From Bifidobacterium breve (GTDB lineage Bacteria; Actinomycetota; Thermoleophilia; Solirubrobacterales; Solirubrobacteraceae): 64,000 bases of DNA. Below, one piece after another: positions 4,518 to 36,326 of the stretch; the stretch's first letter is position 1, and each line of letters starts with the position of its first letter. Where the stretch lies: the NCBI GenBank assembly GCA_945878865.1, contig CAMCUD010000006.1, positions 62,001-126,000 of the forward strand, given 5' to 3'. A program made the translations under genes and the position numbers. The notes below the pieces were generated by a model. It searched no databases. It had not been told where the DNA came from and saw only the letters and a list, made by a program, of their open reading frames with translations.

Positions 4518-4648
4518 CCCCGGGGCGCCGAACGTACGTCATGCGGGGCCCCAGCCCCGCCAAACGTACGCTCGCCCGGGCGGGTCGGCCGAGCGGTGGT
4601 CCTGCGGGGTCAGAGCCCCGCACGACGTACGTTCGGCCCGGGGCGGGG
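4518..4648. repeat. large intergenic palindromic element
   Basis: A 131-base region whose outer arms (about 4518-4547 and 4617-4648) are near-perfect inverted repeats centred on CGAACGTACGTC at 4529-4540 and GACGTACGTTCG at 4624-4635, flanked by matching G/C runs. Inside are smaller inverted repeats such as GCGGGG...CCCCGC. It fills most of the gap after the cobA-hemD stop and probably terminates the haem operon. It shares pieces (TGCGGGGTC, ACGTACGT, GTTCGGC) with the elements around 35186 and 36322. Confidence 0.75.
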
Positions 4649-4649
4649 G

Positions 4650-8335: not shown

Positions 8336-8535
8336 GAGGTGACCTTATCCGGGGTCGGGTCCTCCGTGCGCGCGTTCGGCTGGGCGTCGACGACGTCGGC
8401 CAGCTCAGCCAGGTCCTGCTCGATCCGGCTGATGCGCGCGACCATGATGAGGACGTACAGCAGGATGAGCGCGACGAAGACGGTGTACGCGGCCGCGACG
8501 TACTTGCCGGCCTCGTCGTAGGGCAGTGCGGGCAT
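8332..8535 (-). CDS. small membrane protein, CcmD-like
   Basis: A 67-residue protein with one transmembrane helix (about residues 13-33, YVAAAYTVFVALILLYVLIM) followed by ARISRIEQDLAEL, a short charged coiled segment. Size, topology, Arg after the helix and position immediately after ccmC match CcmD, the small partner of the CcmABC haem-handling complex that releases holo-CcmE. CcmD proteins are poorly conserved in sequence, so the call rests mainly on context. It overlaps hemA by four bases and starts one base after the ccmC stop. Confidence 0.72.
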   Translation of the reverse strand: MPALPYDEAGKYVAAAYTVFVALILLYVLIMVARISRIEQDLAELADVVDAQPNARTEDPTPDKVTS

Positions 8536-8536
8536 G

Positions 8537-9262
8537 TCAGCTGAGCTCCGGGGCGCCGGTGCGGCGGGTGGGGGCGGTGTCGGCCGCGCCGAGCTTGCGG
8601 CGCATGGCCTTCACGCGGAAGCGGATCTGCTTGGTCGCCAGCTCGAACTTCCACAGCGTGAGGTAGAGCAGCGCGACGCCGACCAGGCCGACGAGGAACG
8701 TCAGCATCATCTCGCCGGGCATCCCGCCGGTGGTGGTGCCGAGGGTGCGCGGGTGGACATAACTCTGCGCCATCCGTACGGCGGCGAAGTTGATCGGCAC
8801 GAACGCGCCGGCCACGATCGCGAACACCGCGGCGTAGCGGGCCTGCGTCTCGGGCTGCTCGATGCTGAAGCGCAGCGGCTGGTAGCACGCGTACAGCAGG
8901 AAGACGATGAGGAACGAGACGAGCATCGGTTCGTCCCAGACCCACCAGTGGCCCCACGAGCCCTTCGCCCAGATCGACCCGGTGACGAGCACCCCGAGGG
9001 CGAACATCAGGGACAGGTGGATCGCCACGTACGAGCGCAGATCCCACTTCGGGTCGCGCGTGCGGAGGTACTGGATGCCGAGGATCCCGCCGAACACGAA
9101 CCCGCACAGCGCGACGATCGCCAGCGGAACGTGGATGTAGAAGATCTTCTGGATGAAGCCCTGATCGGCGTCGTTCGGCGTCCAGAAGAACACCATCGCG
9201 AGCAGGACGGTGATCGTCACCGCTGTGGCGGCCGCGAGGGGGCGCAGGCCCTTGCCGTACAT
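8537..9262 (-). CDS. ccmC: cytochrome c maturation haem-handling protein CcmC
   Basis: A 241-residue protein with six predicted transmembrane helices. It carries the tryptophan-rich WGHWWVWDEPM motif (WWD domain) that binds haem, and two flanking conserved histidines (YIHVPLAIV before it and QSYVHPRTLG after). CcmC passes haem to CcmE on the outer face of the membrane. The gene lies between ccmB and the ccmD-like gene with gaps of only a few bases. No ccmE, ccmF or ccmH is in the window, so these must be elsewhere if the System I pathway is complete. Confidence 0.93.
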   Translation of the reverse strand: MYGKGLRPLAAATAVTITVLLAMVFFWTPNDADQGFIQKIFYIHVPLAIVALCGFVFGGILGIQYLRTRDPKWDLRSYVAIHLSLMFALGVLVTGSIWAKGSWGHWWVWDEPMLVSFLIVFLLYACYQPLRFSIEQPETQARYAAVFAIVAGAFVPINFAAVRMAQSYVHPRTLGTTTGGMPGEMMLTFLVGLVGVALLYLTLWKFELATKQIRFRVKAMRRKLGAADTAPTRRTGAPELS

Positions 9263-21875: not shown

Positions 21876-22505
21876 CTACGAGCTCCGAATCGAATCCACA
21901 AGCTTCCAGACCCCGCTGCTCGGACTCGTCCAGAGCGGCGAGCCATCGCCGTGATGCTTCGCTTCGAGTCTGATAGCTCGAGTCTTGGCCGTGGCGTATG
22001 CGTCTCCGAGTTGCTCCAGGGCTTGGTCGGAAAGCGTCTTCTGGCAGCCCGTGTAGTGCTCTGATCGTCGTTGCGCTTCTCGTCTATCCAGCTGTGCGGT
22101 CTGATCGGCGAAATGCAAAACGAACCAGAGCTCGACACAAGGACTGGAGACGGCCAACCCGATTCCATTGTCTGAGGCCATGTTGCGAACCTCATGGAGG
22201 TTCGGGTGTTCGTCGACATCGAACATGCACCACACCTCGTCATAGGCGCGACCCCCGCCACGCCGCGCTTCCCTTTCACTCCGTCGCTTGGCGTCAGCGG
22301 CCCGGTCGATCAGGCTGCGCGGTGTGCCTCGGAACGGATCGACCCGCACATTCACCTGAGTGCGATGAAGCCGATGCCAATAGACGAGGTAGTCCTCTTC
22401 AGTCCGAAGGCCCTCGACGAAGACGAGTATGTCCTTGCGAATCGCGTTCTTGGTGACCGCGCGGTGAGGCGGGCCCCCGCGCCTAGCTCTCTTCGTCGAC
22501 GCCAT
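21876..22505 (-). CDS. RloB-like protein, probable TOPRIM-type nuclease partner
   Basis: A 209-residue protein with the layout of the RloB family: an N-terminal basic segment, ILVFVEGLRTEEDYLVYW (the Glu of a TOPRIM-like motif), YDEVWCMFDVDEHPN (DxD) and SSPCVELWFVLHF, then a helical C-terminus. RloB genes were first noted next to restriction-modification genes and pair with an AAA ATPase, as here. A nuclease or RNA/DNA-cleaving effector of an abortive defence system is the likely role, inferred from family context. Start ATG 22505 lies 23 bases inside the ATPase gene's 3' end. Base use is clearly lower in GC than the flanks. Confidence 0.78.
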   Translation of the reverse strand: MASTKRARRGGPPHRAVTKNAIRKDILVFVEGLRTEEDYLVYWHRLHRTQVNVRVDPFRGTPRSLIDRAADAKRRSEREARRGGGRAYDEVWCMFDVDEHPNLHEVRNMASDNGIGLAVSSPCVELWFVLHFADQTAQLDRREAQRRSEHYTGCQKTLSDQALEQLGDAYATAKTRAIRLEAKHHGDGSPLWTSPSSGVWKLVDSIRSS

Positions 22506-23874
22506 TGGTGGTGGTCATGGCTGCAAGGGCACGCATTCGCGGGCGTGACACGATTGGAGTCGCCCCATAGCGGCCGGCCAAGTATCGACGTTCGACCGCT
22601 TCGCCCTTTCGCGGATCAAGGTCCGTGAGCGGGTACAAGCGTGACGCCCCGTCGTCGGTCTTCTCCGTGAACCAGATCTGGTCACGTCCGAGGAGTCGTC
22701 GCTCGTTGTCGCCGCCTGCTCGGGAAGCGGCAGACTCGCCAAGGATGGTCGTGTCATGCGAGTTGAAGATCAGTTGGGCGCGCCGGGGATTGCTGATCGG
22801 ATCTTGGAACAGCGCGACCAGATTCGCGACGAGGACGGGGTGTAGGCTTGCATCGAGTTCGTCCGCGAGCAGCACGGAACCGTCCGCCAACGACTTCAAC
22901 ACAGGTCCCACAAGGCCTAGCCAGACGAGCGTGCCGAGAGACTCATCGGTTGTGGCAAACTCGACGTCCTCGTGCTGGCCACGGTGGAGAAGCTGCATTC
23001 CGTAGGTCTCGTCAAACCGCAGTCGTGCCTCTTCAGACGGCTTCTCCGCCTCTTCCTCTCCCATCAGGATGCGCATTGCGCGTTCGAGCCGGTCCCGAAC
23101 CTTTGGGCTGAGTTCTCGCTTGACCGCGCCAGTAATCCCTAGGTCAGCGATTCGTAGGAACTCCAGAACCCTGCCCCGGTGGCGCGGATCATCGAGCATG
23201 GTTGTAGTCAGCGCCTGTCGAACGCTCCGACTCTCGGCCTCGGCCAGAACGAGATTTCGCTCAAACCATGAATAGAGGGGAAGGAGGATCGGATGGTTGG
23301 CCGAGGCTGCTGTGGACAAGAACAGCGCGTTTGGGCGCAGCAGGCCGACGACCGCCTTTGTCCGGGAGCGCTCGACCGTGCCGACATCCACATGGTCGCC
23401 ATCTCGTGAGAAGAGAAGAACCGCGCGGCCCTTAGGAAAACGAATCGCCCACTCCTCAATCACATGGTCGCGATCCACAACGAACCCGTAGCGGTGGCGT
23501 ACTCCCTCAAGCACCATGTCGACTTCGAACGTTGATGGCGCATCTGCGGACTCAGGATCGAGCCGGAACGGCTTTTGCGGGAGCTTGCCCGTCGGGCTTC
23601 CGTGGCGGAAGGAGTGGAGAACGAGCGTGCGCATGTCCGCTAGGGCTCGGAGCACATTGCTCTTGCCCGACGCATTAGCGCCAAAGAGCCCGGCTGCGGG
23701 CAGCACATCGATTGGCTTTCCGCCCTCCCGCCAAGCGACGGAACGGCGGGCCTCTGGTTCCGATAGGGCGGTGGCGAGTAGCGACAGGTGAAACTCGTCT
23801 CGGAACGATCGGATGTTCCTCCCGTTGAAAGCCAGCAGGGCGGAACCTCGGTAGCTGGTTTCGCTTGGATCCAC
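22483..23874 (-). CDS. AAA-family ATPase (AAA_15/AAA_21, RloA-like), probable phage-defence sensor
   Basis: A 463-residue SMC/OLD-like ATPase. It begins with FNGRNIRSFRDEFHLSLLA, has Walker A GLFGANASGKSNVLRAL, a signature-like region around residue 330, Walker B SVLLADELDASLHPVLVANL and the switch histidine in IFNSHDTTIL. This is the class found with RloB and in OLD, PARIS-like and Septu-like defence pairs. No C-terminal nuclease domain is fused; the separate RloB-like gene overlaps it. Start GTG 23874 is the first in-frame start. The 149-base upstream gap is AT-rich and probably carries the promoter. Confidence 0.85.
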   Translation of the reverse strand: MDPSETSYRGSALLAFNGRNIRSFRDEFHLSLLATALSEPEARRSVAWREGGKPIDVLPAAGLFGANASGKSNVLRALADMRTLVLHSFRHGSPTGKLPQKPFRLDPESADAPSTFEVDMVLEGVRHRYGFVVDRDHVIEEWAIRFPKGRAVLLFSRDGDHVDVGTVERSRTKAVVGLLRPNALFLSTAASANHPILLPLYSWFERNLVLAEAESRSVRQALTTTMLDDPRHRGRVLEFLRIADLGITGAVKRELSPKVRDRLERAMRILMGEEEAEKPSEEARLRFDETYGMQLLHRGQHEDVEFATTDESLGTLVWLGLVGPVLKSLADGSVLLADELDASLHPVLVANLVALFQDPISNPRRAQLIFNSHDTTILGESAASRAGGDNERRLLGRDQIWFTEKTDDGASRLYPLTDLDPRKGEAVERRYLAGRYGATPIVSRPRMRALAAMTTTNGVDEES

Positions 23875-24023: not shown

Positions 24024-25748
24024 TCATCTGCTCGGCGCCGGTTCGGTCGCGATGTGCATCCGCCAGCCACCGTGCTCGGTTATGTCCGCAGCGTCGCCCA
24101 GCGCGCCTGCCTCGCAGATGAACCCCGTGATCTCACTGCCATCCTCGAGCGCCACCCGTCCCAATCCCAGCGGCGCGCCGATCAGCCCGAGCAGCTCACC
24201 GAGCCCGGCCGACGGGATCTCCCACACCTCACACGCGATCGCGGCGCCGTCCTCCGACCGCATCAACCCCGGCCGCGTGCCATCCGGAAGCGCAAAGAAC
24301 CGGTAGACCGGCGCCGTCGACGTCGCTCGCACGAACCGCGCGCCCCGATCGGTCAGCTGCGCGTTCAGCGGCATGCCCGACAGATGCGCCCCGAACACCG
24401 CGAGCTGCACGAGCCCCGGCTCGTCGACACACGCCGGCTCGCCCGCCCAGCACGCCCCCGCGCTCAGCAGCCGGTGGTCATGGAACGCCGGCGCCAGCAG
24501 CGACACCCCGAACGGCAGCCCGTCCGGCCGCGTCGGCGCAGGCACCGCCACCGCCGCGAGATCCATGAGGTTCACGAAGTTGGTAAAGCGTCCGAGCGCT
24601 TCGTTCTCGCCGACCGGGTCGGCGGCCACCGCCGCGTGGGTCGGATGCCCGGGCGTCGTCGGCATGAGCAGCGCGTCCACCGACGACCAGATCGGCGCCG
24701 CCTCCCGTCGCAGCCGCGCGAGCTCATGCGCCGCCGAGAACACATCCACCGCGGACAACGACGCGCCGCCGCGCACGATCCGCGCCACCGTCGGGTCCAG
24801 TCCCTCGGGCTCGGACTCGATGATTTCCAGCAGGTCCGCCGACCGCTCCGCGACCCACGACGCGTAGAGCAGCGGCGCGGCCGCCAGCAGCGGTGACACG
24901 TCCACCGGCACGAGCGTCCAGCGCGACGCCGCGTGCTCCAGCGCCGCGCGCCACGCCGCCTCGGCCTCCGGCTCGGTGAACGACAGCTGGCCCTCCATCG
25001 GGACACCGAGCAGTCCGCGGCGCGGTGACATCGGCACCTCGGCCGGCCGCGACCACGGGTCCGCCTCGTCGTACGACCCCATCACGCCGAGCACGATCGA
25101 CGCGTCCACCGACGTCGACGCGAACACCGAGACGCAGTCCAGCGACGCGCACGCCGGGACCACGCCCCGCGTGGAGATCAGCCCGCGCGTCGGTTTCAAG
25201 CCGACCAGCGCATTGAACGCCGCCGGCACCCGGCCCGAGCCCGCCGTGTCTGTCCCCAGCGAAAACGTCACGAGCCCGAGCGCCACCGCCAGCGCCGACC
25301 CCGAGGACGAGCCGCCGCTGACCCGCGCAGCATCGAACACCGACCCGTCCACGCCATACGGCGACCGCGTCCCAACGAGTCCCGTCGCGAACTGGTCCAT
25401 GTTCGTCTTGCCCACGAGCAGCGCCCCCGCGTCGAGCAGGAGCTGCACCGCGTGCGCGGTCTCAGAAGGCGTGTACGCGTAGCCCGGGCAGCCCGCCGTC
25501 GTCGGCATCCCGGCGACGTCGAAGTTGTCCTTCACCGCGAACGGGACCCCGTAGAGCGGCAGCGACCGGTCGGCGGAATCCAGCGCCGCTGCGGCCGTCA
25601 GCAGGTCGTCATCCGCGACCCGCGTGATCCACACCGGCGCATCCGAGTCGGCGCACCGCGCGATCACCTCCGCGGCGACGTCGGACGGGTCGAGTCGGCC
25701 CGCCCGGTAGTCCTCCAGCAGTCCCTGCACCGTCCACGACTCGCTCAT
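24024..25748 (-). CDS. atzF: allophanate hydrolase
   Basis: A 574-residue enzyme that hydrolyses allophanate to ammonia and CO2. The N-terminal amidase-signature domain (about 1-430) has the catalytic Lys in YGVPFAVKDN, and the cis-Ser and nucleophile Ser in ARVSGGSSSGSA and SLGTDTAGSGRVPAA. The C-terminal domain (about 445-574, LAVFGAHLSGMPLNAQL ... GFICE) is the gamma-glutamylcyclotransferase-like domain of full-length AtzF, which decarboxylates the intermediate. The ATG at 25748 overlaps the upstream carboxyltransferase stop by four bases. It is the last gene of the guanidine-riboswitch operon and the final step of the pathway. Confidence 0.95.
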   Translation of the reverse strand: MSESWTVQGLLEDYRAGRLDPSDVAAEVIARCADSDAPVWITRVADDDLLTAAAALDSADRSLPLYGVPFAVKDNFDVAGMPTTAGCPGYAYTPSETAHAVQLLLDAGALLVGKTNMDQFATGLVGTRSPYGVDGSVFDAARVSGGSSSGSALAVALGLVTFSLGTDTAGSGRVPAAFNALVGLKPTRGLISTRGVVPACASLDCVSVFASTSVDASIVLGVMGSYDEADPWSRPAEVPMSPRRGLLGVPMEGQLSFTEPEAEAAWRAALEHAASRWTLVPVDVSPLLAAAPLLYASWVAERSADLLEIIESEPEGLDPTVARIVRGGASLSAVDVFSAAHELARLRREAAPIWSSVDALLMPTTPGHPTHAAVAADPVGENEALGRFTNFVNLMDLAAVAVPAPTRPDGLPFGVSLLAPAFHDHRLLSAGACWAGEPACVDEPGLVQLAVFGAHLSGMPLNAQLTDRGARFVRATSTAPVYRFFALPDGTRPGLMRSEDGAAIACEVWEIPSAGLGELLGLIGAPLGLGRVALEDGSEITGFICEAGALGDAADITEHGGWRMHIATEPAPSR

Positions 25749-27622
25749 GCACCCTCGCTTCCTGCGGCCGCCGCGGCCCACGAGTCACGCTCCGCCGCGA
25801 ACGCCGCCTCCCGCTTCTCGCGGAAGGCCGCGATCGAGGCGGCATGCGTCTCGAGGAACGCCTCGTGTTCAGCCATCGAGAACGTCACCGGCTCCACGCG
25901 TGGAGCCCATTCACCCGCTGCGCTCAGCACGCGCAGCTCCTCCAGTTCCTCCTCGCTCACCGGCGAGAAGCGGATCTGGTCGAAGTGGTGGAGCAGCGCC
26001 CCGGACTCGACCCCCCAGATCGGGGCCGTGCGCCCGACGAGCTGATAGCCGCCCGGGCCCTCCATCCCGTACACGCACATGAACGCGCCGCCGATGCCCA
26101 CCGCGTTCGGCGGGGTCCACGGCCGCGGCGGCGTGTACTTCGTCGTCACCAGGCGATGCCGGGGATCGATCGGCAGCGCGACCGGCGCGCCGAGGTAGAC
26201 GTCTCCGAGCCCGAGCACGAGGTACGACGCGTCGAAGACGATCCGCCGCACCTCCTCTTCTGAAGCCAGCCCGTTGATCCGCCGGATGAACTCGACGTTG
26301 TCCGGGCACCACGGTGCGTCGGCCCACACCGACGTCATGTACTTCTCGACCGCGAGCTCCGCCTGCGAGTGGCGCCACGCCAGCGGCAGGTGCACGACGC
26401 GCGCGGCGATCGGCTGGTCTTCGGGCGGCGGCAGCTCGGCCTGTACGCGGCGGACCGCCCACAGGAGCGCGGTCGCGGTGATGACCGCCGGGTCGAACTG
26501 CACGTGCAGGGAGCGCACGCCCGGAGTCAGGTCGGTGACCCCGGGGATGCCTGCGTCGACGAGCGCGCCCTGGAGCACGTGCGCGCGTACGCGCGAGCGG
26601 AGGTCGAGCGTGTTGGCGCCGAACTCGACGAGCAGCGCGCGCTCGCCGGCGCGGCGATAGGTCACGGCACCGCCGGTCGCTTCCGCGGAAGCGTCGAGCA
26701 CCGGGTCCGCGTCGCCCGACCCGACCGCGAAGGACGGCGTGACGTCGCGCAGGAGCACCGTGTCGCCCGGCCGCATTTGGCCGAGCATCCACAGGTCGTC
26801 GCGGACGATCTGGCAGAACACCGCGAACCCGCCGAGCGACGGGCCGTCTGGGCCGACGACGACCGCCGACTCGCCGCCGAGCATCACCGAGCCGACGCCG
26901 TACGCCGAGTCGAGGATGTTCGACGGATGCAGTCCCGCGTCGCCGCCATCGGCGCGGGTGAAGTCGGGGATCGGGCCGTCGAGGCGCACGCCGGTGCGGT
27001 CGGAGTGGTGGTGCACGGTCCACTCGCCGTCGAGCAGCTCGGCCAACGACTCCGGCGTGACGATGTCCGGCGAGCCCTGCGGCCCGGTCACCACCCGCAC
27101 CGTCCAGGTGTTCCCCATCGCCGGGCGCTCGACCGACGCCGCTCGCGGGCCGACCTCCGCGCCGCCGATCGGCAGCATCTCCCCGGCCTCGAGCTTGCCG
27201 CCACCGATCTTGCCCGGGGTGAACGAGGCCCGCGAGCCGAGCACGACCGGGTCGTCGATTCCGCCCGCCACGAGCACGTACGCGCGCATGCCGACCCCGC
27301 GGATCGAGCGCAGCCGCAGCTCACCGCCGGCGGGGACCTCGAGCGCCGTCCACTGCGGCACGGGGTGGCCGTCGAGTTCGACGACTAGCGGCGCGCCCGT
27401 GACGGCGACGACCGTGGGGTCGGAGAAGCACAGGCGCGGGCCGGTCACGACGACCTCCAGGCCCGCCGCGCCCTCGGGGTTGCCAACGAGCCGGTTGCCC
27501 AGGCGGAACGACAGGTCGTCCATCGGGCCGGACGGCGGCACGCCGACCTCCCACATGCCGAGCCGGCCGGGCCAGTCCTGCACCGTCGTCAGGGTGCCGG
27601 GTGAGAGCACCTCGATGCTCAC
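25745..27622 (-). CDS. carboxyltransferase module of a urea/guanidine carboxylase, lacking biotin carboxylase and biotin carrier domains
   Basis: A 625-residue protein. Residues 1-295 are the KipA/AHS2-type domain (SIEVLSPGTLTTVQDWPGR, GVPPSGPMDD), residues about 300-480 the KipI/AHS1-type domain (YRRAGERALLVEFG ... LTPGVRSLHVQFDP), and residues about 490-600 the extension specific to urea-type carboxylases (WCPDNVEFIRRINGL, GLGDVYLGAP, YTPPRPWTPPNAVGIGG). Full carboxylases are about 1200 residues, with an N-terminal biotin carboxylase and a C-terminal carrier with an MKM motif; both are absent. The protein ends at RDSWAAAAAGSEGA, where the carrier would begin. Start GTG 27622 overlaps the upstream stop (GTGA). 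Confidence 0.88.
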   Translation of the reverse strand: MSIEVLSPGTLTTVQDWPGRLGMWEVGVPPSGPMDDLSFRLGNRLVGNPEGAAGLEVVVTGPRLCFSDPTVVAVTGAPLVVELDGHPVPQWTALEVPAGGELRLRSIRGVGMRAYVLVAGGIDDPVVLGSRASFTPGKIGGGKLEAGEMLPIGGAEVGPRAASVERPAMGNTWTVRVVTGPQGSPDIVTPESLAELLDGEWTVHHHSDRTGVRLDGPIPDFTRADGGDAGLHPSNILDSAYGVGSVMLGGESAVVVGPDGPSLGGFAVFCQIVRDDLWMLGQMRPGDTVLLRDVTPSFAVGSGDADPVLDASAEATGGAVTYRRAGERALLVEFGANTLDLRSRVRAHVLQGALVDAGIPGVTDLTPGVRSLHVQFDPAVITATALLWAVRRVQAELPPPEDQPIAARVVHLPLAWRHSQAELAVEKYMTSVWADAPWCPDNVEFIRRINGLASEEEVRRIVFDASYLVLGLGDVYLGAPVALPIDPRHRLVTTKYTPPRPWTPPNAVGIGGAFMCVYGMEGPGGYQLVGRTAPIWGVESGALLHHFDQIRFSPVSEEELEELRVLSAAGEWAPRVEPVTFSMAEHEAFLETHAASIAAFREKREAAFAAERDSWAAAAAGSEGA

Positions 27623-28266
27623 ACGGGGCTCCAGATGATCATCCGCACCGGCGTCGGGTCGTAGCCATTGCACGGGTTGTTCAGCTGCGGGCAGTTGCTG
27701 ACCATCACGACGGTGTCGCGGTCGGCGCGCAGCTGCACGTACTTGCCGGGCGCGCTGATGCCGTCCTCGAAGGTCAGCCCGCCCTCCGGGGTCAGCGGCA
27801 CGTTCATGAAGAAGTTCACGTTGTGCGTGAGGTCGCGCTTCTCCAGCCCGCGGCCCCACCGAAGCGCCTCGAGCAGGAACGTCTGGCGGCACGCGTGCAT
27901 GTGCCGCGTGTGCTCGCCGTAGCGCACGACGTTGGACTCCTGCGAGCAGGCGCCGCCGAGCGTGTCGTGGCGGCCGCACGTGTCCTCGACGATCGTCACG
28001 AGCGGCTGGCCGTCGAGCGCGAGGAGCCGCGAGCCGGTCGTGAGGTACGCATTGCGCTGCTCGCGCAGCGTGTCGACGGCCGAATAGCGGTTGGCGTAGT
28101 CGTGCGCGTCGAAGAACAGCGTGTCGATCGCCTGGTTGCCGTGCAGGTCGACCATGCGCAGGATCTCGCCGGCCTTCAGCTTGTGCGTCCAGCCGTCGCC
28201 GGCGGGGATGTCGGTGACGAGCCGCGCGGCGGCGGGGTCGAGCCCGAGAGAAGAGGTGACGCTCAT
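27619..28266 (-). CDS. DUF1989 protein, carboxyguanidine deiminase subunit (urea carboxylase-associated protein)
   Basis: A 215-residue DUF1989 protein. Members next to urea-type carboxylases were called urea carboxylase-associated proteins and are now known as the CgdA/CgdB subunits that deiminate carboxyguanidine to allophanate. Visible family patterns are LKAGEILRMVDLHGNQAIDTL, NRYSAVDTL, DTCGRHDTLGGACS and NFFMNVPLTPEGGLTFEDG. The cysteine- and histidine-rich centre could bind a metal. I cannot say from sequence which of the two subunits this is. The start ATG 28266 overlaps the stop of its partner gene, and its own stop overlaps the carboxyltransferase start. Confidence 0.88.
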   Translation of the reverse strand: MSVTSSLGLDPAAARLVTDIPAGDGWTHKLKAGEILRMVDLHGNQAIDTLFFDAHDYANRYSAVDTLREQRNAYLTTGSRLLALDGQPLVTIVEDTCGRHDTLGGACSQESNVVRYGEHTRHMHACRQTFLLEALRWGRGLEKRDLTHNVNFFMNVPLTPEGGLTFEDGISAPGKYVQLRADRDTVVMVSNCPQLNNPCNGYDPTPVRMIIWSPV

Positions 28267-28973
28267 GCCAGGACGGCCTCCGAATTGATGAAGCCCCGCT
28301 CGTTCTCCGGGCACGCCAGCCGCACGACGTCATCGGCCGCCGCGACCGGCGCCGCCTCCACCCGCACCCCCACCGGCTTGGGCGCCCACGCCTCCGCCGT
28401 GTCGAGCGGATGCGGGATCGAGCACAGCAGCACGAGCGTGTCGAGCTCGAAGCGCAACGTGACGTGATCGCCCGCCGCCGAGTTCCCGGCGACGAACGAC
28501 AGCTCACCCTCCGGCCCGACCGCGACCTTCGTGAAGAAGTTGATGTTGCCGACGAGGTCGCGGCGGTCCATCCCGTGCTTGGCCAGCTCGACGAGCAGCT
28601 GGTCGCGCGCACCGGGCCGCCAGTCGTTGCGCGCCTCCTGGTACGAGGCGTGGCCCCAGTTCGCGTCGACGATCGCCTGCGTTGCGTGGCCCGTGATCGT
28701 GTCGTGCCAGCCGACCGAGTCGGACACCACCGAGGCGAGCACCCGCCCCATGTCGCTGTACAGCGCGACCCCGGAGGTGATGCGCGAGATGTGCTGCGCC
28801 TTCAGCGTGTCGGGCATGCAGTACCGCTCACGCGTGTCGCCGTCGCGGTAGAGCAGGCACGCGACGTTCGCGCCGCCTTCGATGTCGGTGAGGGTGAGCG
28901 TCGTGCCCCGGCGGCAGACGCGGGACAGCGTCGCCGCCGGCGGCAGCACGGCGTCGAGGATCGGTTCCGTCAC
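28263..28973 (-). CDS. DUF1989 protein, carboxyguanidine deiminase subunit (urea carboxylase-associated protein)
   Basis: A 236-residue DUF1989 protein, paralogue of the next gene and probably its heteromeric partner in carboxyguanidine deimination. Family patterns include RRGTTLTLTDIEGGANVACLL, KAQHISRITSG, DSVGWHDTITGH and NINFFTKVAVGPEGELSFV. The start is GTG 28973, preceded at six bases by a perfect AGGAGG. It lies 13 bases after the permease stop. The tandem DUF1989 pair is diagnostic for guanidine rather than simple urea assimilation. Confidence 0.88.
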   Translation of the reverse strand: MTEPILDAVLPPAATLSRVCRRGTTLTLTDIEGGANVACLLYRDGDTRERYCMPDTLKAQHISRITSGVALYSDMGRVLASVVSDSVGWHDTITGHATQAIVDANWGHASYQEARNDWRPGARDQLLVELAKHGMDRRDLVGNINFFTKVAVGPEGELSFVAGNSAAGDHVTLRFELDTLVLLCSIPHPLDTAEAWAPKPVGVRVEAAPVAAADDVVRLACPENERGFINSEAVLA

Positions 28974-28986
28974 GTGATGCCTCCTG

Positions 28987-29988
28987 TCAGACGGTGCGGA
29001 TGCGGGGGTCGGCCCACGCCTGGGCGAGATCGACGAGGAAGTTGAGGAACACGTACGTCGCGCCCAGCAGGAGCGTGGCGCCGCAGATCGCGGGGAAGTC
29101 CGAGTAGGCGATCGACTGGTCGATGTAGAGCCCGATCCCCGGCCACGCGAAGATCCGCTCGACCACGACGATGCTGCCGAGCATGAGGCCGACCTGCAGG
29201 CCGCCCATCGTCAGCGCCGGGCCCGACGCGTTGCGCAGCGCGTGCTTGAGCAGGACGGTCCGCTCCTTCAGCCCCTTTGCGCGGGCGGTGCGGACGTAGT
29301 CCTCCTTCTGCACCGCGTCGAGCGACGTCGCCAGTGTCCGGGCGATCGCCAGCGTCGGCAGCAGCGCGAGCGTGATCGCCGGCAGCAGCAGGTGCTGGAG
29401 CGCGTCGATCGTCAGGTCGGGTGTGCCGTTGAGGATCGAGTCGATGACGAGGAAGTTCGTCGGGCCATCGGGGACGACGAAGTTGTCGCCCACGCGGCCG
29501 GACGCCGGCAGCCAGCCCAGCCACGAGTAGAAGACGACGATGAGTAGCAAGCCGGTGAGGAACGCGGGGATCGACGCGCCGCCGATGAGCAGCAGCCTGA
29601 TCCCCTTGCCCGCGCGCCCGCCACCGGCGAGCAGGAGCCCGAGCCCGAGCCCGCCGATCGCCGCCAGGAACATCGCGGCGAAGGCGAGCTCGAACGTCGC
29701 CGGGGCGAATGCGCGGAGGTCCTCCACGACCTCGTTGCGGGTGCGCAGCGAGCTCTGCAGGTCCCCCTGCGCGAGCCGCCCCATGTAGTCGGCGAACTGC
29801 GCGGGCAGCGGCTGGTCGTAGCCCAGCTCGTGCCGCTTGGCCTCCACGGCCTCCTTGGACGCGCTGGCGCCCACCATCGCCCGAGCCGGATCCGACGGGA
29901 TCACGGCCTGCAGGACGAACACGATCACCGCGAGGCCGAAGAGCACGGCCAGCATCGCGGCGAACCGGCGGAGCACCAGCGCGGCCAT
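28987..29988 (-). CDS. ABC transporter permease, dipeptide/oligopeptide (DppB) type
   Basis: A 333-residue membrane protein with six predicted helices. The N-terminus LRRFAAMLAVLFGLAVIVFVL, the FDLGQPLP-like 'LGYDQPLPAQFADYMGRLAQGD', and the cytoplasmic EAA loop LDAVQKEDYVRTARAKGL are hallmarks of DppB-type permeases. With the DppC-type partner at 31547-32503 it should form the channel of the importer in this operon. This is unusual, because guanidine-riboswitch operons more often carry nitrate/taurine-type or SMR transporters. Confidence 0.93.
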   Translation of the reverse strand: MAALVLRRFAAMLAVLFGLAVIVFVLQAVIPSDPARAMVGASASKEAVEAKRHELGYDQPLPAQFADYMGRLAQGDLQSSLRTRNEVVEDLRAFAPATFELAFAAMFLAAIGGLGLGLLLAGGGRAGKGIRLLLIGGASIPAFLTGLLLIVVFYSWLGWLPASGRVGDNFVVPDGPTNFLVIDSILNGTPDLTIDALQHLLLPAITLALLPTLAIARTLATSLDAVQKEDYVRTARAKGLKERTVLLKHALRNASGPALTMGGLQVGLMLGSIVVVERIFAWPGIGLYIDQSIAYSDFPAICGATLLLGATYVFLNFLVDLAQAWADPRIRTV

Positions 29989-29990
29989 GA

Positions 29991-31550
29991 CTAGTTCCCC
30001 CGCTTGACGGCCGCGAGGTCGATGAGCCAGGGGTAGGCCGGCGTGTTCTGCACGTTGCCGAGCGAGTTGCTCATCACGAACACGTTCTTGACGTCACCCA
30101 GCAGGAAGAACTGGTTGTCGTCGATGACCTCCTGGGCGACCTGCTTGTACAGGGCGTTCGCCTTGTCGTCGGGGGCGCTGAGCGCCTCGTCGAGGTTGGC
30201 GTCGATCTGCTTGTTCTGCGCGCCCAGGAAGTTCAGACCGCCGGTCGAGTAGAACATGATCCGCGCCCACAGATCGGGGTGCGCGCCGTCCGGCGTGTTG
30301 GTCATCAGCAGCAGGTCCGGGGCGTCCTTGAGGTTCTCGATGTAGCCGTAGACCTGCGGGAGCTGGACCTCCTTGATCGTCACGTCGTAGCCGGCCGTCT
30401 TCAGCTGGGCCTGGAGCAGCTCGCCGACGCGGCGCTGGACGCCGGACTCGTCAGCGGAGTAGCCGAGCGTGATCTTCTTCGTCTTGGCCTTGTCCGCCGC
30501 GGCCTTCGCCTTCGCGGTGTCGACCTTGTACGGGAGCGCCGGCTCACCGGGCAGCAGGCCGGGCGGGTACACGCCCTTCGCCGGCTCGGCGGTGTCCGAG
30601 TAGCCCTGCTCGACGAGCTGGTCGATGTCGATCGTCGAGCCGAGGCCCGCGCGGACCGCCGGGTCGTTGAACGGCGCCTTGTTCGAGTTGACGTAGAGGA
30701 TCAGCCGCAGCAGCGAGTCCTGCTTGTCGACCGTGATGTTGTCCGGCAGCGACTCCAGCTCGGAGGCCGGGAAGCCGTGGAGGATCGCGTCGAAGTCGCC
30801 CTTCTCGAGCTTCAGGCGCTGCGTGCCCATGTCCGGCGTGATCGAGATGACGACCTTCTGGAAGTTCGCGGGCGTGCCCCAGTAGTCGTCGTTGCGCGTG
30901 AGCACGTACGAGCTGCCGCGCTTGAACGAGGTGAGCTTGTACGGGCCGGTGCCGTCGCCGTGAGTCTGCAGCCACGTCTGGCCGTAGTCCTTGCCGGCGT
31001 TCTCCTTGATCGCCTCCGGGCCGATGACCTTCGGGCCCCAGCTCGACGCCATGTAGTGCAGGAACGGCTGGACCTTCGACTTCAGCGTGATGGTCAGCTC
31101 GTTGCCGTCGCACGTCATCGACTTGACGTCCTTGAGCATGTACGCCGGCGCCTGGTCGACGTCGAGGCGGCGCTGGAACGCGGCCTTGACGGAGTTGCAG
31201 GTCATCTTCGACCCGTCGTGGAACGTCACCCCGTCCTGCAGCGTGAACGTGTAGGTCAGTCCGTCGCTTGAGACCTTCCAGGACTTCGCGAGGTTCGGCG
31301 CGAGCTCGAGCGTGCCCTCCTTGTACTTCAGGAGGCCCTCGTACTGGTTGAGGATCACCGCGTTGCCCTCGATGTCGTAGAAGACGTCGGGGTCGGGCAC
31401 GGACATGTCGGCGAGGTACGGGATGCGCAGCGTCTGCGTGTCGCCGCTCGCGGTGGTGGACGAAGCGTCCTTCTGCGCCGAGCCGCAGCCGACCGCGCCG
31501 AGCGCGCCGACCGCCAGCACGCCCAGCAGCGTGAGGGTCCTACGGGTCAT
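29991..31550 (-). CDS. ABC transporter substrate-binding lipoprotein, family 5 (DppA/OppA type)
   Basis: A 519-residue binding protein. The signal peptide ends in the lipobox GAVGC (Cys 22), so it is a lipid-anchored receptor. The family-5 fold is visible from SVPDPDVFYDIEGNAVILNQYEGLL through LAKSWKVSSDGLTYTFTLQDGVTFHDG and TGPYKLTSFKRGSSYVLTRNDDYWG to the C-terminal lobe. This family binds peptides, nickel, opines and various amine compounds. In this operon the ligand is likely a guanidino compound, which is an inference from the riboswitch and the degradation genes. Start ATG 31550 overlaps the upstream permease stop. Confidence 0.92.
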   Translation of the reverse strand: MTRRTLTLLGVLAVGALGAVGCGSAQKDASSTTASGDTQTLRIPYLADMSVPDPDVFYDIEGNAVILNQYEGLLKYKEGTLELAPNLAKSWKVSSDGLTYTFTLQDGVTFHDGSKMTCNSVKAAFQRRLDVDQAPAYMLKDVKSMTCDGNELTITLKSKVQPFLHYMASSWGPKVIGPEAIKENAGKDYGQTWLQTHGDGTGPYKLTSFKRGSSYVLTRNDDYWGTPANFQKVVISITPDMGTQRLKLEKGDFDAILHGFPASELESLPDNITVDKQDSLLRLILYVNSNKAPFNDPAVRAGLGSTIDIDQLVEQGYSDTAEPAKGVYPPGLLPGEPALPYKVDTAKAKAAADKAKTKKITLGYSADESGVQRRVGELLQAQLKTAGYDVTIKEVQLPQVYGYIENLKDAPDLLLMTNTPDGAHPDLWARIMFYSTGGLNFLGAQNKQIDANLDEALSAPDDKANALYKQVAQEVIDDNQFFLLGDVKNVFVMSNSLGNVQNTPAYPWLIDLAAVKRGN

Positions 31551-32503
31551 CGAGTGGTCCTTTGGTCGAGCCGGCGATTGATGGAGTCGCCGAGGAGGTT
31601 TGCCGCGAGCGCCAGGAGGGCGACCGCGGCGGCCGGGGCGATCGGCACCCAGGGGTGGCCGAAGAGGTACTGCAGGCCGCGCGCGCTCATGGCCCCGAGC
31701 TCGGGCGCGGGCGGCGGAGCGCCGAGGCCGATGAACGACAGGCCGGCCAGGGCGAGGATGAGGTTTCCGACGTCGAGCGACATCGTCACGATCACGGGCG
31801 CCATCGCGCCGGGCAGGAGGTGCTTGAGGACGAGCCGCGTGCGGCTCACGCCCGCGAGCCTCGCCGCCTCGGTGTGCGGGCGGGCGGCCAGCGCGCGGAC
31901 CTCGCCGCGCACGATGCGCGCGTACCAGGGCCACCACACGATGCTCAGGGCGATGAGCGTGTTGCGCAGGCTCGGGCCCATCGCCGCGACGACGGCAATC
32001 GCGAGGACCGGCGCGGGGAGCGAGAGGAACAGGTCCGTGATGCGCATGAGGACCATGTCGAGCTTCCCGCCGAACGCGCCGGCGACGGCGCCGATGAGGC
32101 CGCCGATGATCGTCCCGAGGAAGATCACGCCCAGCGCGCTGAACCAGGAGACGCGCATGCCGATGAGCACGCGGCTGAAGACGTCGCGGCCGATCTCGTC
32201 CGTGCCGAACCACGCGCCGGACGTCGGCGCGTGCAGCGCTCCCGCGGAGGTGACGTCCGTGCTGCCGTAGGGGGCGAACACCGGCGCGACGAGGATGACG
32301 AACGACAGGACGAAGAACGGGATCAGCGCGTGCCACACGGTGTCGCCCGACAGGGCGCCGGGGGTGATCGGGCGGCGGCCGCGCCACAGCTTCGAGGTCG
32401 CGCCGGGAACCTTCGCGGCGGCGGGCGCGCCGGGGCCTTCGACCGGCAGGGCGCCTTCGGTCAGGCCGGTCGTGGGCGGCGCGTCGGGCGTGACGGTGCT
32501 CAT
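31547..32503 (-). CDS. ABC transporter permease, dipeptide/oligopeptide (DppC) type
   Basis: A 318-residue membrane protein. A long proline-rich cytoplasmic N-terminus (about 50 residues) precedes the OppC-type region WHALIPFFVLSFVILVAPVF, then FGTDEIGRDVFSRVLIGMRVS and the EAA loop RGEVRALAARPHTEAARLAGVS. About six helices are predicted. It partners the DppB-type permease. Both ends overlap neighbouring genes by four bases, so the transporter genes form one coupled run. Confidence 0.93.
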   Translation of the reverse strand: MSTVTPDAPPTTGLTEGALPVEGPGAPAAAKVPGATSKLWRGRRPITPGALSGDTVWHALIPFFVLSFVILVAPVFAPYGSTDVTSAGALHAPTSGAWFGTDEIGRDVFSRVLIGMRVSWFSALGVIFLGTIIGGLIGAVAGAFGGKLDMVLMRITDLFLSLPAPVLAIAVVAAMGPSLRNTLIALSIVWWPWYARIVRGEVRALAARPHTEAARLAGVSRTRLVLKHLLPGAMAPVIVTMSLDVGNLILALAGLSFIGLGAPPPAPELGAMSARGLQYLFGHPWVPIAPAAAVALLALAANLLGDSINRRLDQRTTR

Positions 32504-34320
32504 GCGGCGACCTCCACCTCGGTCACGTCCGGCACGGCGGCGATGAGCTCGCGCGTGTACGGGTGCTGCGGGTCGGTGAACAGCTGCTCGGTGGGCGCAC
32601 GCTCGACGACCTCGCCCTGCTGCATGACGACGACCTCGTCGGCGACGGCCCGCGCGGCGGCGAGGTCGTGGGTGACGAAGAGCAGCGCGATGTCGAGCGT
32701 CTCGCGCAGATGGCACAGGAGGTTCAGCACCTGGGCGGCGAGCGACACGTCGAGCGCGGAGACCGGCTCGTCGCAGGCCAACAGCGCGGGCGGCACCGCG
32801 ATCGCACGGGCGATCGCCGCGCGCTGGCGCTGCCCCCCGGAGAGCGCGCGGGGAACAGCGGTCGCCGCCTCGCCGGGCAGCCCGACCGCCTCCAGCGTGG
32901 CGAGCACGCGGCGCTCGCGCTCCTCGCGCGGGACGTCGAGTGCGATGAGCCGTTCCTCGATCTGTTTGCCGATCGCCATCCACGGCGTCAGCGACGCGCC
33001 TGCGTCCTGGAAGATCATCTGCGGCGGCGCACCCGGTCCGAGCTCGATCTCGCCCTCGGTGGGCTCGAGCAGGCCGACGATCATGCGCAGCAGCGTCGAC
33101 TTCCCCGAGCCCGACTCGCCCACGATCGCCACGGAGCCGGCGTGCGGAACTTCGAGGTCGACGCCCTTCACCGCGTAGAACGGCTCCGGCCGCTTGGCGA
33201 ACGGGAACGGCTTCGGGCGCTCGAAGGCGCGCACCGCCCCGCGCACGACGACAGCGGGGTCCGGCGGGGTCGCCGGGATCATCGCCGGCGCCTGCGCGGG
33301 GTGGGGCGCCTTGAGGAGGATCGGGTCCTTGCGGCCGGCGTGCGGGCCGCCTTCCGGCCAGCGCGTCAGCACGCCGGGGTGGTGGCACTCGTCCCGCCGC
33401 TCGCCGAGGGCGTGGTTGGGGACGGGGCCGGCGCACTCCGTGTCGGCGGCGGGGCAGCGGGGCGCGAACGCACAGCCCGCGAGTGGATTGCGGGGGTCCG
33501 GAGGCCGGCCGGGGAGCGTGGGCAGGTCGCCGCCGGCGATCGTCCCGTCGAGCTTCGGGCGGCTGGCGAGCAGGCCGACGGTGTACGGGTGGTGCGGCTC
33601 GGAGAGGATCTGCGCGCAGGTGCCCTCCTCGACGATGCGCCCGGCGTACGCGACGGCGATCCGATCGCAGATGCGCGCGGCGACGCCGAGGTCGTGGGTG
33701 ACGAGCAGCAGCGCCACGCCGCGCTCGCGGGCCGCGTCGGCCAGGAGTTCGAGAACCTTCGCCTGGACGGTCACGTCGAGCGCGGTGGTCGGCTCGTCCG
33801 CGACGATGAGCCGCGGGTGGCGGGAGAGCGCCATCGCGATCATCACGCGCTGGCGCAGGCCGCCGGACAGCTCGTGCGGGTAGGCGCGCGCCTTGTGCTC
33901 GGGCTCGGGGATCCCGGTCGCGGCGAGCATCTGCGCGACCTCCTCGTCCGTCGCCCCGCCCGCCGCCTCGGCGACCTGGCGGCCGATGCGCATCGACGGG
34001 TTCAGCGAGCCCATCGGGTCCTGGAAGACCGCGCTGATGTACGTGCCTCGGCGGGCGCGCCGCTCGTCCTCGGCGGCCGTGACCATGTCGATCCCGTCGA
34101 GCATCGCGGTGCCCTCGATGCGCGGCTCGGGCGCGGCCGGCAGCAGGCCGAGCGCGGTGAGGCCGAGCACGGACTTGCCCGACCCCGACTCGCCGACCAG
34201 GCCGACGACCTCCCCGGGCATCACCCGCAGAGAGGCGCCGCGGACGGCGTGCACGTCGCCGCGGGGCGACGCGAAGGTCACGTGCAGGTCCTGCACGTCG
34301 AGGACGGGCGTGTCGGTCAT
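32500..34320 (-). CDS. fused dipeptide-type ABC transporter ATPase (DppD-DppF in one chain)
   Basis: A 606-residue protein containing two complete ABC ATPases. The first (about 1-320) has Walker A GESGSGKSVLG, signature LSGGLRQRVMIA, Walker B LIVADEPTTALD, and a C-terminal oligopeptide-type zone with CAFAPRCPAADTECAGPVPNH. The second (about 345-606) has GESGSGKSTLL, LSGGQRQRAAIA and LLACDEPVSALD. Two ATPases in one chain are common in this transporter class. No BC or carrier domain is fused. The ATG at 34320 overlaps the cysteine hydrolase stop. Confidence 0.94.
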   Translation of the reverse strand: MTDTPVLDVQDLHVTFASPRGDVHAVRGASLRVMPGEVVGLVGESGSGKSVLGLTALGLLPAAPEPRIEGTAMLDGIDMVTAAEDERRARRGTYISAVFQDPMGSLNPSMRIGRQVAEAAGGATDEEVAQMLAATGIPEPEHKARAYPHELSGGLRQRVMIAMALSRHPRLIVADEPTTALDVTVQAKVLELLADAARERGVALLLVTHDLGVAARICDRIAVAYAGRIVEEGTCAQILSEPHHPYTVGLLASRPKLDGTIAGGDLPTLPGRPPDPRNPLAGCAFAPRCPAADTECAGPVPNHALGERRDECHHPGVLTRWPEGGPHAGRKDPILLKAPHPAQAPAMIPATPPDPAVVVRGAVRAFERPKPFPFAKRPEPFYAVKGVDLEVPHAGSVAIVGESGSGKSTLLRMIVGLLEPTEGEIELGPGAPPQMIFQDAGASLTPWMAIGKQIEERLIALDVPREERERRVLATLEAVGLPGEAATAVPRALSGGQRQRAAIARAIAVPPALLACDEPVSALDVSLAAQVLNLLCHLRETLDIALLFVTHDLAAARAVADEVVVMQQGEVVERAPTEQLFTDPQHPYTRELIAAVPDVTEVEVAA

Positions 34321-34928
34321 GCCGCCGCGGGCTCCTTCGCGGCGTAGGCGGCGAACGCGTCGAGCGTCTCTTCGCTCGAGACGAGCGCATCGCGCTGGAG
34401 GTACTCCATGGCGTTCAGCGACGCGGTGTGTGCCTCGATGGACGACCCGCCGACGCAGTCGGTGACGACGCGCAGGTGGTAGTCGTGCTGGTGCGCGTCG
34501 GCGAACGTGTAGTGCACGCACACATCGGTGAGCGCGCCGATGAGGACCAGGGTCTCGGCCTTGTAGGCCTTCAGGACGATCTCCAGCTCGGTGCCGAAGA
34601 ACGCGCTGTAGCGGCGCTTGCGGATGAGGTACTCGTCGGGCCGCGGCTCGAACCCGTCGGCGAGCTCGGTGGCCTCGTCACCCTCGAGCCCGTGGATGGT
34701 CTCCGCGCCGTCGAGCTCGCGGCCGAAGTCGATGAGGGTCCGCTTGTGGACCTCCTGGATGAACACCGGCGGGATGCCGGCTTCCCGGGCGGCCTGCACG
34801 ATCTCCAGGGAGCGCGCGTGGCGCTCGGCGCCGCCGCCCATGATGGGGATCCCGCAGGCCTCTTGGCCCATGGTCTCGCCCTTCTGAATATCGATGACGA
34901 CCAGCACGGTGCTGCCGATGAGCTGCAT
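34317..34928 (-). CDS. isochorismatase-family cysteine hydrolase (amidohydrolase)
   Basis: A 203-residue hydrolase and the first gene behind the guanidine-I riboswitch. The Asp-Lys-Cys triad can be placed: VLVVIDIQKG (Asp), RKRRYSAFFGTEL (Lys) and GALTDVCVHYTFADA (nucleophilic Cys). The family includes biuret hydrolase, ureidoacrylate hydrolase and guanylurea hydrolase. Given the riboswitch, the importer and the downstream deiminase and allophanate hydrolase genes, release of guanidine (from a compound such as guanylurea) or of allophanate (from biuret) is a reasonable inference; the substrate is not shown by sequence. AGGGGG precedes the ATG at 34928. Confidence 0.88.
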   Translation of the reverse strand: MQLIGSTVLVVIDIQKGETMGQEACGIPIMGGGAERHARSLEIVQAAREAGIPPVFIQEVHKRTLIDFGRELDGAETIHGLEGDEATELADGFEPRPDEYLIRKRRYSAFFGTELEIVLKAYKAETLVLIGALTDVCVHYTFADAHQHDYHLRVVTDCVGGSSIEAHTASLNAMEYLQRDALVSSEETLDAFAAYAAKEPAAA

Positions 34929-34981: not shown

Positions 34982-35078
34982 TTTTGTCCCTCCGTGTGAG
35001 CCGGCCTATGTGCACTGCTGGCCGACCTGCCCTCTCGGACCAGACCCGCTGTTCGGCGGCGGAACCCTAGGGCGACAT
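34970..35078 (-). ncRNA. guanidine-I (ykkC) riboswitch
   Basis: Read on the minus strand, the region contains the hallmark conserved segments of the ykkC/guanidine-I aptamer in order: CCCTAGGGTTCCG (about 35073-35061), TCTGGTCCGAGAGG (about 35045-35032), ACACGGAGGG (about 34998-34989) and ACAAAAGCCCGGGAGA ending near 34972. It lies 44 bases upstream of the first operon gene. Guanidine binding normally turns such operons on. The downstream genes (DUF1989 pair, carboxyltransferase module, allophanate hydrolase) are classical members of this regulon, which agrees with the assignment. Confidence 0.93.
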
Positions 35079-35185
35079 GAAGGTTGGACGGTCTGCATCG
35101 CACCGCATATCGGCACCCGGTCCAAAGTGCTGGGACCGCCGTTGTACACACCGTCGGATACCGCCGCCTCGCCCGCCACCCGCGC
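35079..35185. promoter_or_regulatory. divergent control region between riboswitch operon and arginase-family gene
   Basis: The 107 bases upstream of the riboswitch must carry the operon promoter. An inverted repeat CGGTCC...GGACCG spans 35118-35138 and could be an operator. I see AT-rich candidates (CATAT near 35107, TTGTAC near 35142) but no convincing -35/-10 pair on either strand. Confidence 0.35.
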
Positions 35186-35305
35186 GGTGAACGTTGGTTC
35201 ACCGGGGTTCCAGGCCCGCACGATGGACGCTCGGCCAGATACCGGCGCCCCTCCCGCCGAGCGTCTGTCCTGCGGGGTTCTGGGCCCGGTGAACCAACGT
35301 TCACC
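35186..35305. repeat. large palindromic element, copy upstream of the arginase-family gene
   Basis: The outer arms are perfect 21-base inverted repeats: GGTGAACGTTGGTTCACCGGG at 35186-35206 and its complement at 35285-35305. Nested inner arms GACGCTCGGC (35226-35235) and GCCGAGCGTC (35256-35265) also pair. The same 21-base arm recurs at 36322-36342 and, inverted, at 36412-36432, downstream of the gene. Confidence 0.85.
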
Positions 35306-35342
35306 CGGGGGTGGGGGCGCGGCCGCGTGGGAGGATGGGGGC

Positions 35343-36326
35343 ATGATCGATCCGCTGTCGCGCTGGGCCGCATACGGGGAGAAGCCCGATTTCGCCGGCC
35401 TCCTGACCTTCTCCGGCCAGCCGTACACCGAGGATCCCGCCGAGCTTGAAGGGGTGGACGTCGCGATCGTTGGGGCGCCGACCGACGACCTGGTCTCCGA
35501 CCGGCCGGGTACGCGCTTCGGCCCGCGCGCGATCCGCGCCGCAAGCTGCCCGCCGGGGCCGCATCTCGAGGCGAAGGTCGACGCGTTCAGCGAGCTGAAG
35601 GTCGTGGACTTCGGCGACGCGCCGGTTCTGCCCTCGGATCCCGCGCGCACGCACGAGGCGATCCAGGCGACCGTCGCGCAGGTGCTGGCCGCCGGCGCGC
35701 TGCCCGTCATTCTCGGCGGCGACCACTCGATCGCCGAGCCGGACATCCGGGCGTGCTCACTCGCGCACGGCGGCCCGGTCGGGCTCATCCACTTCGACAC
35801 GCACACGGACACGGGCACGGAGGTGTTCGGCGTCGAGGTCTCGCACGGCACGCCGATGTACCGGCTCGTCGATGCGGGCTACGTCGACCCGCGCCGCTAC
35901 GTCCAGATCGGGCTGCGCGGGTACTGGCCCGGTGACGAGGAGTTCGGCTGGCAGGCGGAGCAGGGGATCACGGCGCTGTTCATGCACGACGTGCGCGACC
36001 GGGGGATCCGCGCCGTGGTGGAGGAGGCGGTGGCGAAGGTCGGGGCCGGGCCGGTGTTCCTCTCGGTGGACGTCGACGTGCTCGACCCCGCGTACGCGCC
36101 CGGGACCGGAACCCCCGAGCCGGGCGGCATGACCTCCGCCGACCTGCTGTGGGCGTGCCGTGCGATCGGTGAGGCGGTCGAGCTCTGCGGCATGGATGTC
36201 GTCGAGGTGATCCCGACGGCGGTCGGCTCGGCCGACATCACCGCGCTGGTGGCGGACCGCATCGTGCGCGAGGCGCTGACCGGCGTGGCGCTCCGCCGCC
36301 GCGCCGCCCCCTTGCCGCGGGGGTGA
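35343..36326 (+). CDS. arginase/agmatinase-family ureohydrolase
   Basis: A 327-residue metallohydrolase of the ureohydrolase superfamily. Manganese or nickel ligands are in VILGGDHSI (His), HFDTHTDTG (Asp, His, Asp) and LSVDVDVLDPAYAPGTGTPEPGG (Asp, Asp). Members split guanidino groups from arginine, agmatine, guanidinobutyrate, guanidinopropionate or, in one branch, guanidine itself. Divergent placement next to a guanidine riboswitch operon makes a guanidino substrate of that pathway likely. GGAGGA precedes ATG 35343. The gene is bracketed by two palindromic elements, and its stop codon lies inside the downstream one. Confidence 0.9.
   Translation: MIDPLSRWAAYGEKPDFAGLLTFSGQPYTEDPAELEGVDVAIVGAPTDDLVSDRPGTRFGPRAIRAASCPPGPHLEAKVDAFSELKVVDFGDAPVLPSDPARTHEAIQATVAQVLAAGALPVILGGDHSIAEPDIRACSLAHGGPVGLIHFDTHTDTGTEVFGVEVSHGTPMYRLVDAGYVDPRRYVQIGLRGYWPGDEEFGWQAEQGITALFMHDVRDRGIRAVVEEAVAKVGAGPVFLSVDVDVLDPAYAPGTGTPEPGGMTSADLLWACRAIGEAVELCGMDVVEVIPTAVGSADITALVADRIVREALTGVALRRRAAPLPRG

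Follow-up and report, generated by a model that had tools for sequence, protein, structure and literature searches.

The sequence, phylogenetic and comparative data suggest that the gene at 25745-27622 on the minus strand of the window (the whole 64,000-nucleotide stretch analysed) is probably the substrate-specific carboxyltransferase (CT) subunit of a multi-subunit guanidine carboxylase. The biotin-dependent half would be supplied in trans by the housekeeping alpha subunit of acyl-CoA carboxylase, which carries biotin carboxylase (BC) and biotin carrier (BCCP) domains on one chain. The CT-only cgdA/cgdB-CT-atzF layout recurs across Actinomycetota, in many soil actinobacteria including this one, and shows that the biotin half is genuinely missing: repeatedly lost, or never present, and conserved in that state.

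The gene reads from 27622 to 25745 with a GTG start and no stop inside the frame, and encodes 625 residues comprising CT_A_B, CT_C_D and a C-terminal extension. In Pfam searches, CT_A_B (residues 26-290) and CT_C_D (residues 321-538) are the only matches, with no ATP-binding domain among them. Against the urea carboxylase model TIGR02712, in which BC occupies positions ~1-447 and BCCP ~1125-1201, the protein scores 762.6 bits, below the cut-off of 1303.85, and its best-matching stretch stops at model position 1110 of 1201. The counterpart in the closed genome of a congener spans positions 440-748 and 792-1109; BC and BCCP are therefore absent. These matches bear out an earlier note on this DNA, which held that the gene contains only a KipA/KipI-like CT part and the extension of urea-type carboxylases, beginning where BC would end and stopping where the carrier would start. 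As four bases are shared with each neighbour (GTGA at the start, with the UAAP2 gene; ATGA at the end, with the allophanate hydrolase gene), there is no space for lost domains. Neither BC nor BCCP turned up when the six frames of the window were scanned with profiles that did detect the positive controls, in agreement with the same note. Elsewhere in this genome there is no full-length urea or guanidine carboxylase, and the window gene is the sole CT_A_B gene.

The surrounding operon lies on the minus strand behind a Guanidine-I riboswitch (RF00442; 34971-35081; 77.9 bits, gathering score 63), which ends ~43 bases ahead of the first gene, an isochorismatase-fold hydrolase weakly like biuret amidohydrolase (34317-34928). 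This is followed by an ABC transporter consisting of two ATPases in one frame (32500-34311), a second permease (31547-32503), an extracellular solute-binding protein (29991-31550) and a permease of the binding-protein-dependent type (28987-29988); the ATPases and solute-binding protein were assigned from sequence, and the second permease from sequence and gene order. The series continues with two DUF1989 proteins, UAAP1 (28263-28973) and UAAP2 (27619-28266, start chosen at MSVTSS), then the CT gene, and closes with an allophanate hydrolase of the atzF type (24024-25748). By family, UAAP1 and UAAP2 are assigned as the subunits of carboxyguanidine deiminase (CgdAB), an enzyme of the described guanidine pathway (PMC12186494, PMC11410670).

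The riboswitch extends to relatives of the window gene. A pattern search allowing up to three substitutions located its core upstream of 43 of the 44 CT-only loci that have Met at the specificity position (1330, see below) and enough upstream sequence, and Rfam at the gathering threshold confirmed it in 11 such loci. Seven long CT-only loci with Asp1330 were tested, and none carries a guanidine riboswitch. In one CT-only locus (L034), the first gene past the riboswitch is, by eye, an amino-acid-permease-type transporter (7034-8692), as opposed to the ABC transporter of the window; the spacing of ~1.7 kb between riboswitch and UAAP1 seen there is found in many CT-only loci.

Two further features flank the operon. 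Beside the riboswitch, a divergent ureohydrolase-family gene (35010-36326, plus strand, domain from ~35220) has guanidinobutyrase and guanidinopropionase as its nearest solved structures, and lies near the operon only in the two nearest relatives. Its identification as a guanidinase was rejected, the signature Trp being replaced by Thr. Past the other end (21876-23874, minus strand), an RloB-like gene overlaps an AAA ATPase that matches AbiL (AbiLi/AbiLii), making these a candidate anti-phage pair.

The riboswitch, CgdAB and allophanate hydrolase together point to guanidine as the substrate. Of the earlier assignment to "guanidine/urea", the guanidine part is thus supported by the riboswitch and CgdAB genes, while the urea part found no support. 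Residues were mapped to the Kluyveromyces lactis enzyme by sequence alignment, not from a solved complex. D474 corresponds to Asp1584, an active-site residue (PMC11410670), and K495 to Lys1605, the likely general base (PMC5770610); both are kept in the window protein and invariant in the alignment, in which 172 positions are common to CT-only and full-length enzymes. M247 corresponds to position 1330, and the alignment around this site is ungapped. The published distinction here is Asp in guanidine carboxylases versus Asn in urea carboxylases (PMC12186494), with Asp used as a separator (PMC11410670), and the window protein has neither. If context indicates guanidine, Met1330 is therefore either a departure from the Asp rule or an indication that the substrate is modified, and guanidine is best described as the putative substrate. 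Set against full-length guanidine carboxylase (Gca), the protein keeps the equivalents of Asp1584 and Lys1605, and its gene shares a riboswitch-headed guanidine operon with CgdA/CgdB and allophanate hydrolase. Because BC and BCCP are missing from the chain and Asp1330 is replaced, it is not filed as a strict guanidine carboxylase and is instead proposed to be the CT subunit of one. An AlphaFold2 model aligns with K. lactis urea amidolyase (5i8i) over 564 residues (Z 37.1, rmsd 3.3); with a mean pLDDT of 74.1 and low values at ~495-526, its active-site region is too uncertain for reading substrate contacts.

The distribution of relatives indicates how widely the CT-only form is shared. Scanning a single genome for each species yielded 77 loci, in which Pseudomonadota encode BC-CT-BCCP in one chain and Actinomycetota encode UAAP1-UAAP2-CT, mostly then allophanate hydrolase, with no BC or BCCP. 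Further genome searches found that Actinomycetota hold both the CT-only and full-length kinds. With just two candidates scored in each genome, the phylum search with TIGR02712 falls short of a census, and the locus counts are samples, not prevalence figures: the 78 classified CT-only loci with Met, Ile or Asp at 1330 divide into 61 with Met, one more with Met at a partial locus, 4 with Ile and 12 with Asp, and the 49 classified full-length loci into 47 with Asp1330 and 2 with Asn1330. In the flanks fetched, both Asn1330 genes are accompanied by allophanate hydrolase and not by UAAP genes, as expected of urea enzymes.

Profile scans over 1.3 Mb found no BC near the CT gene in 92 of 93 CT-only loci, with flanks of up to 10 kb in about half of them and ~1.5 kb in most others. 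The one BC match, in L174, is to a single frame of 1131 aa that lies ~6.5 kb away from the CT gene, also matches BCCP and, by its size, is probably pyruvate carboxylase. A BCCP match at 24 bits in another locus (L048) probably reflects a lipoyl domain. The closest homologues, on whose architecture the earlier note had staked its reading, also lack both domains, and the genes adjoining the recurrent CT-only layout in Actinomycetota are CgdAB and, mostly, allophanate hydrolase. A search of open-access papers found none on a guanidine carboxylase lacking BC, though such papers may exist.

Some CT-only loci depart from this pattern. One beyond the 78, from another actinobacterial family (L103, G104:C71:80397-82358), no longer has the catalytic residues, with Glu in place of Asp1584 and Arg in place of Lys1605, and carries Ala at 1330; its fetched flanks contain no CgdAB or allophanate hydrolase, and its function is possibly different. 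In two Kribbella loci (L066, 9913-13515; L082, 9913-13536), CT and allophanate hydrolase are read in one frame with no stop between them, possibly a CT-allophanate hydrolase fusion lacking BC and BCCP.

In a tree built by a quick method without bootstraps and rooted on split LamB-KipI-KipA relatives, a Met/Ile clade of 52 rows, including the window protein, is sister to the group containing all full-length enzymes. Ten Asp1330 CT-only enzymes of Mycobacteriaceae (family f30, its name inferred from relatives) form a supported clade nested in the full-length enzymes, and two CT-only enzymes from the family of the window genome are likewise placed among these, with weaker support. A single origin was rejected by forcing all CT-only rows together (p-AU 1.41e-47). 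The CT-only form therefore appears either to have arisen at least twice or to be ancestral and to have re-arisen. The nesting of the Mycobacteriaceae clade inside the full-length group is what one would predict were a trans partner to render fused BC and BCCP superfluous.

A candidate for that partner is present in the same genome. The genome-wide hunt for stand-alone BC and carrier genes suggested in the earlier note recovered two: an orphan BC-BCCP alpha subunit of 596 aa (G000:C35:24918-26705), with no CT gene adjacent, and a lone BCCP of ~71 aa. The orphan is one of four BC genes; of the others, that on contig C2 is a single BC-BCCP-CT chain, and those on C5 and C49 each adjoin an acyl-CoA CT (beta) gene. 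Three further acyl-CoA CT genes, on C30, C8 and C14, lie on contigs lacking a BC gene, which makes it probable that the orphan alpha already serves several CTs. Actinobacteria are known to share one alpha subunit among several beta subunits (PMC13118682, PMC11001197). Relatives of the orphan occur in 116 of 121 genomes of the family, with or without a CT-only gene; because it is nearly universal, its presence does not discriminate.

The closest solved relative of the orphan alpha is Mycobacterium smegmatis AccA3. Going by its title and its list of chains, PDB 9yx5, a long-chain acyl-CoA carboxylase complex of M. smegmatis, contains AccA3 together with MSMEG_0435-0436. This pair, annotated "allophanate hydrolase subunit 1/2", is a two-chain KipA/KipI-type relative of the window CT, of the 5-oxoprolinase type, and is induced under nitrogen limitation (PMC4617892). 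The entry may thus offer a structural precedent for AccA3 with a related CT pair bound.

The orphan alpha on C35 is most likely the trans partner in this genome, and would bind and charge the CT as follows. Guanidine would switch on the operon via the riboswitch. The alpha subunit would carboxylate its own biotin, performing the ATP-dependent half of the reaction in trans. Carboxybiotin would then swing into the CT site, where guanidine would be carboxylated with K495 as general base and D474 as a conserved active-site acid. The adjoining CgdAB deiminase would convert the product to allophanate, which the adjoining allophanate hydrolase would break down to ammonia and CO2. Of the three options in the earlier note, domains acting in trans (including a shared acyl-CoA carboxylase alpha) are clearly the best supported, by the conserved orphan alpha, the repeated CT-only origin in a phylum with shared alphas and the 9yx5 precedent; neither an alternative carboxyl donor nor a novel reaction gained positive support.

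If the partner acts in trans, it could be other than the housekeeping alpha: a catabolic alpha (C49 or C5), or the lone 71-aa BCCP charged by some BC. The genome does hold these two further alphas as well as the lone BCCP (G000:C16; L013, ~4586-4800), and the stand-alone BCCP of Svornostia (4675832-4676062) is the top BCCP match to the urea carboxylase profile, at 68.3 bits. However, the C49 and C5 alphas are each encoded next to a beta gene of their own, and the lone BCCP, whose neighbour is an enoyl-CoA hydratase-like gene, shows no connection to the operon, making such a partner rather unlikely.

A second alternative dispenses with biotin: the CT-only enzyme might use carboxyphosphate or CO2 directly, follow PxpABC-like ATP chemistry, or catalyse a reaction other than carboxylation. 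The 5-oxoprolinase subunits PxpB and PxpC have the same two folds and form an ATP-dependent hydrolase. No dedicated BC or BCCP lies anywhere close to the window gene, and Met or Ile, not Asp or Asn, occupies the specificity position throughout a large clade. Against this, the biotin enzyme's Lys1605 and Asp1584 are kept along with the 172 shared positions, and the Asp1330 CT-only enzymes are nested among full-length biotin enzymes. The CT has no ATP-binding domain, and LamB/YcsF (PxpA) was not found among the operon proteins scanned. The protein falls far short of the cut-offs of the 5-oxoprolinase PxpBC models, scoring 106.1 of 500 bits for PxpC and 36.2 of 145.55 bits for PxpB. A biotin-free enzyme is thus improbable; for the Met/Ile1330 CT-only clade in particular, there is a slim chance of biotin-free carboxylation from carboxyphosphate or CO2, or of a different guanidine reaction still feeding CgdAB.

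Finally, an assembly error or a decaying gene shorn of its flanking domains can practically be dismissed: no frame error with missing domains adjoining, a hazard raised in the earlier note, was found; the architecture is identical across many independent genomes, some closed, including two assemblies at 87-88% identity, one of them a closed chromosome (Svornostia abyssi, L015); dN/dS against two relatives is 0.20-0.24; and the gene overlaps its neighbours on both sides.

If the housekeeping alpha does serve the window CT, one alpha would support both lipid synthesis and the assimilation of guanidine nitrogen, and the two would compete for, or coordinate through, one biotin protein. The shared-alpha principle would then extend to a second, unrelated carboxyltransferase fold. 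Surveys demanding Asp1330 or a full-length enzyme would also overlook a large set of actinobacteria that probably use guanidine.

Among known systems, Gca, acting with CgdAB and allophanate hydrolase, resembles the window system in its CT (~45-53% identical), gene order, Guanidine-I riboswitch and catalytic Lys and Asp. The window CT differs in lacking BC and BCCP and in having Met in place of the diagnostic Asp1330. Urea carboxylase/urea amidolyase (K. lactis, PDB 3va7, 5i8i) shares the fold across the whole CT and the C-terminal extension; the window CT again lacks BC and BCCP, has no Asn1330, and is accompanied by CgdAB, which neither of the two sampled full-length Asn1330 genes has next to it. 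Within the window's own family, three loci (L158-L160) are split clusters with Asn at the 1330 position; in L158, where the genes were read, LamB/YcsF, CT_C_D, CT_A_B, BCCP and BC are separate neighbouring genes. L158 resembles the window in encoding CT apart from BC and BCCP, but its partners are next door, Asn occupies 1330, and CgdAB was not found in the flanks fetched. The actinobacterial acyl-CoA carboxylases (AccA3/AccA1 with several betas) would share with the proposed system the use of one BC-BCCP chain for several CTs, although the window CT is of the KipA/KipI type and not Carboxyl_trans (PF01039). The CT_A_B and CT_C_D chains of MSMEG_0435-MSMEG_0436 are related to the window CT, though separate and distant, and occur in one solved entry (9yx5) with AccA3.
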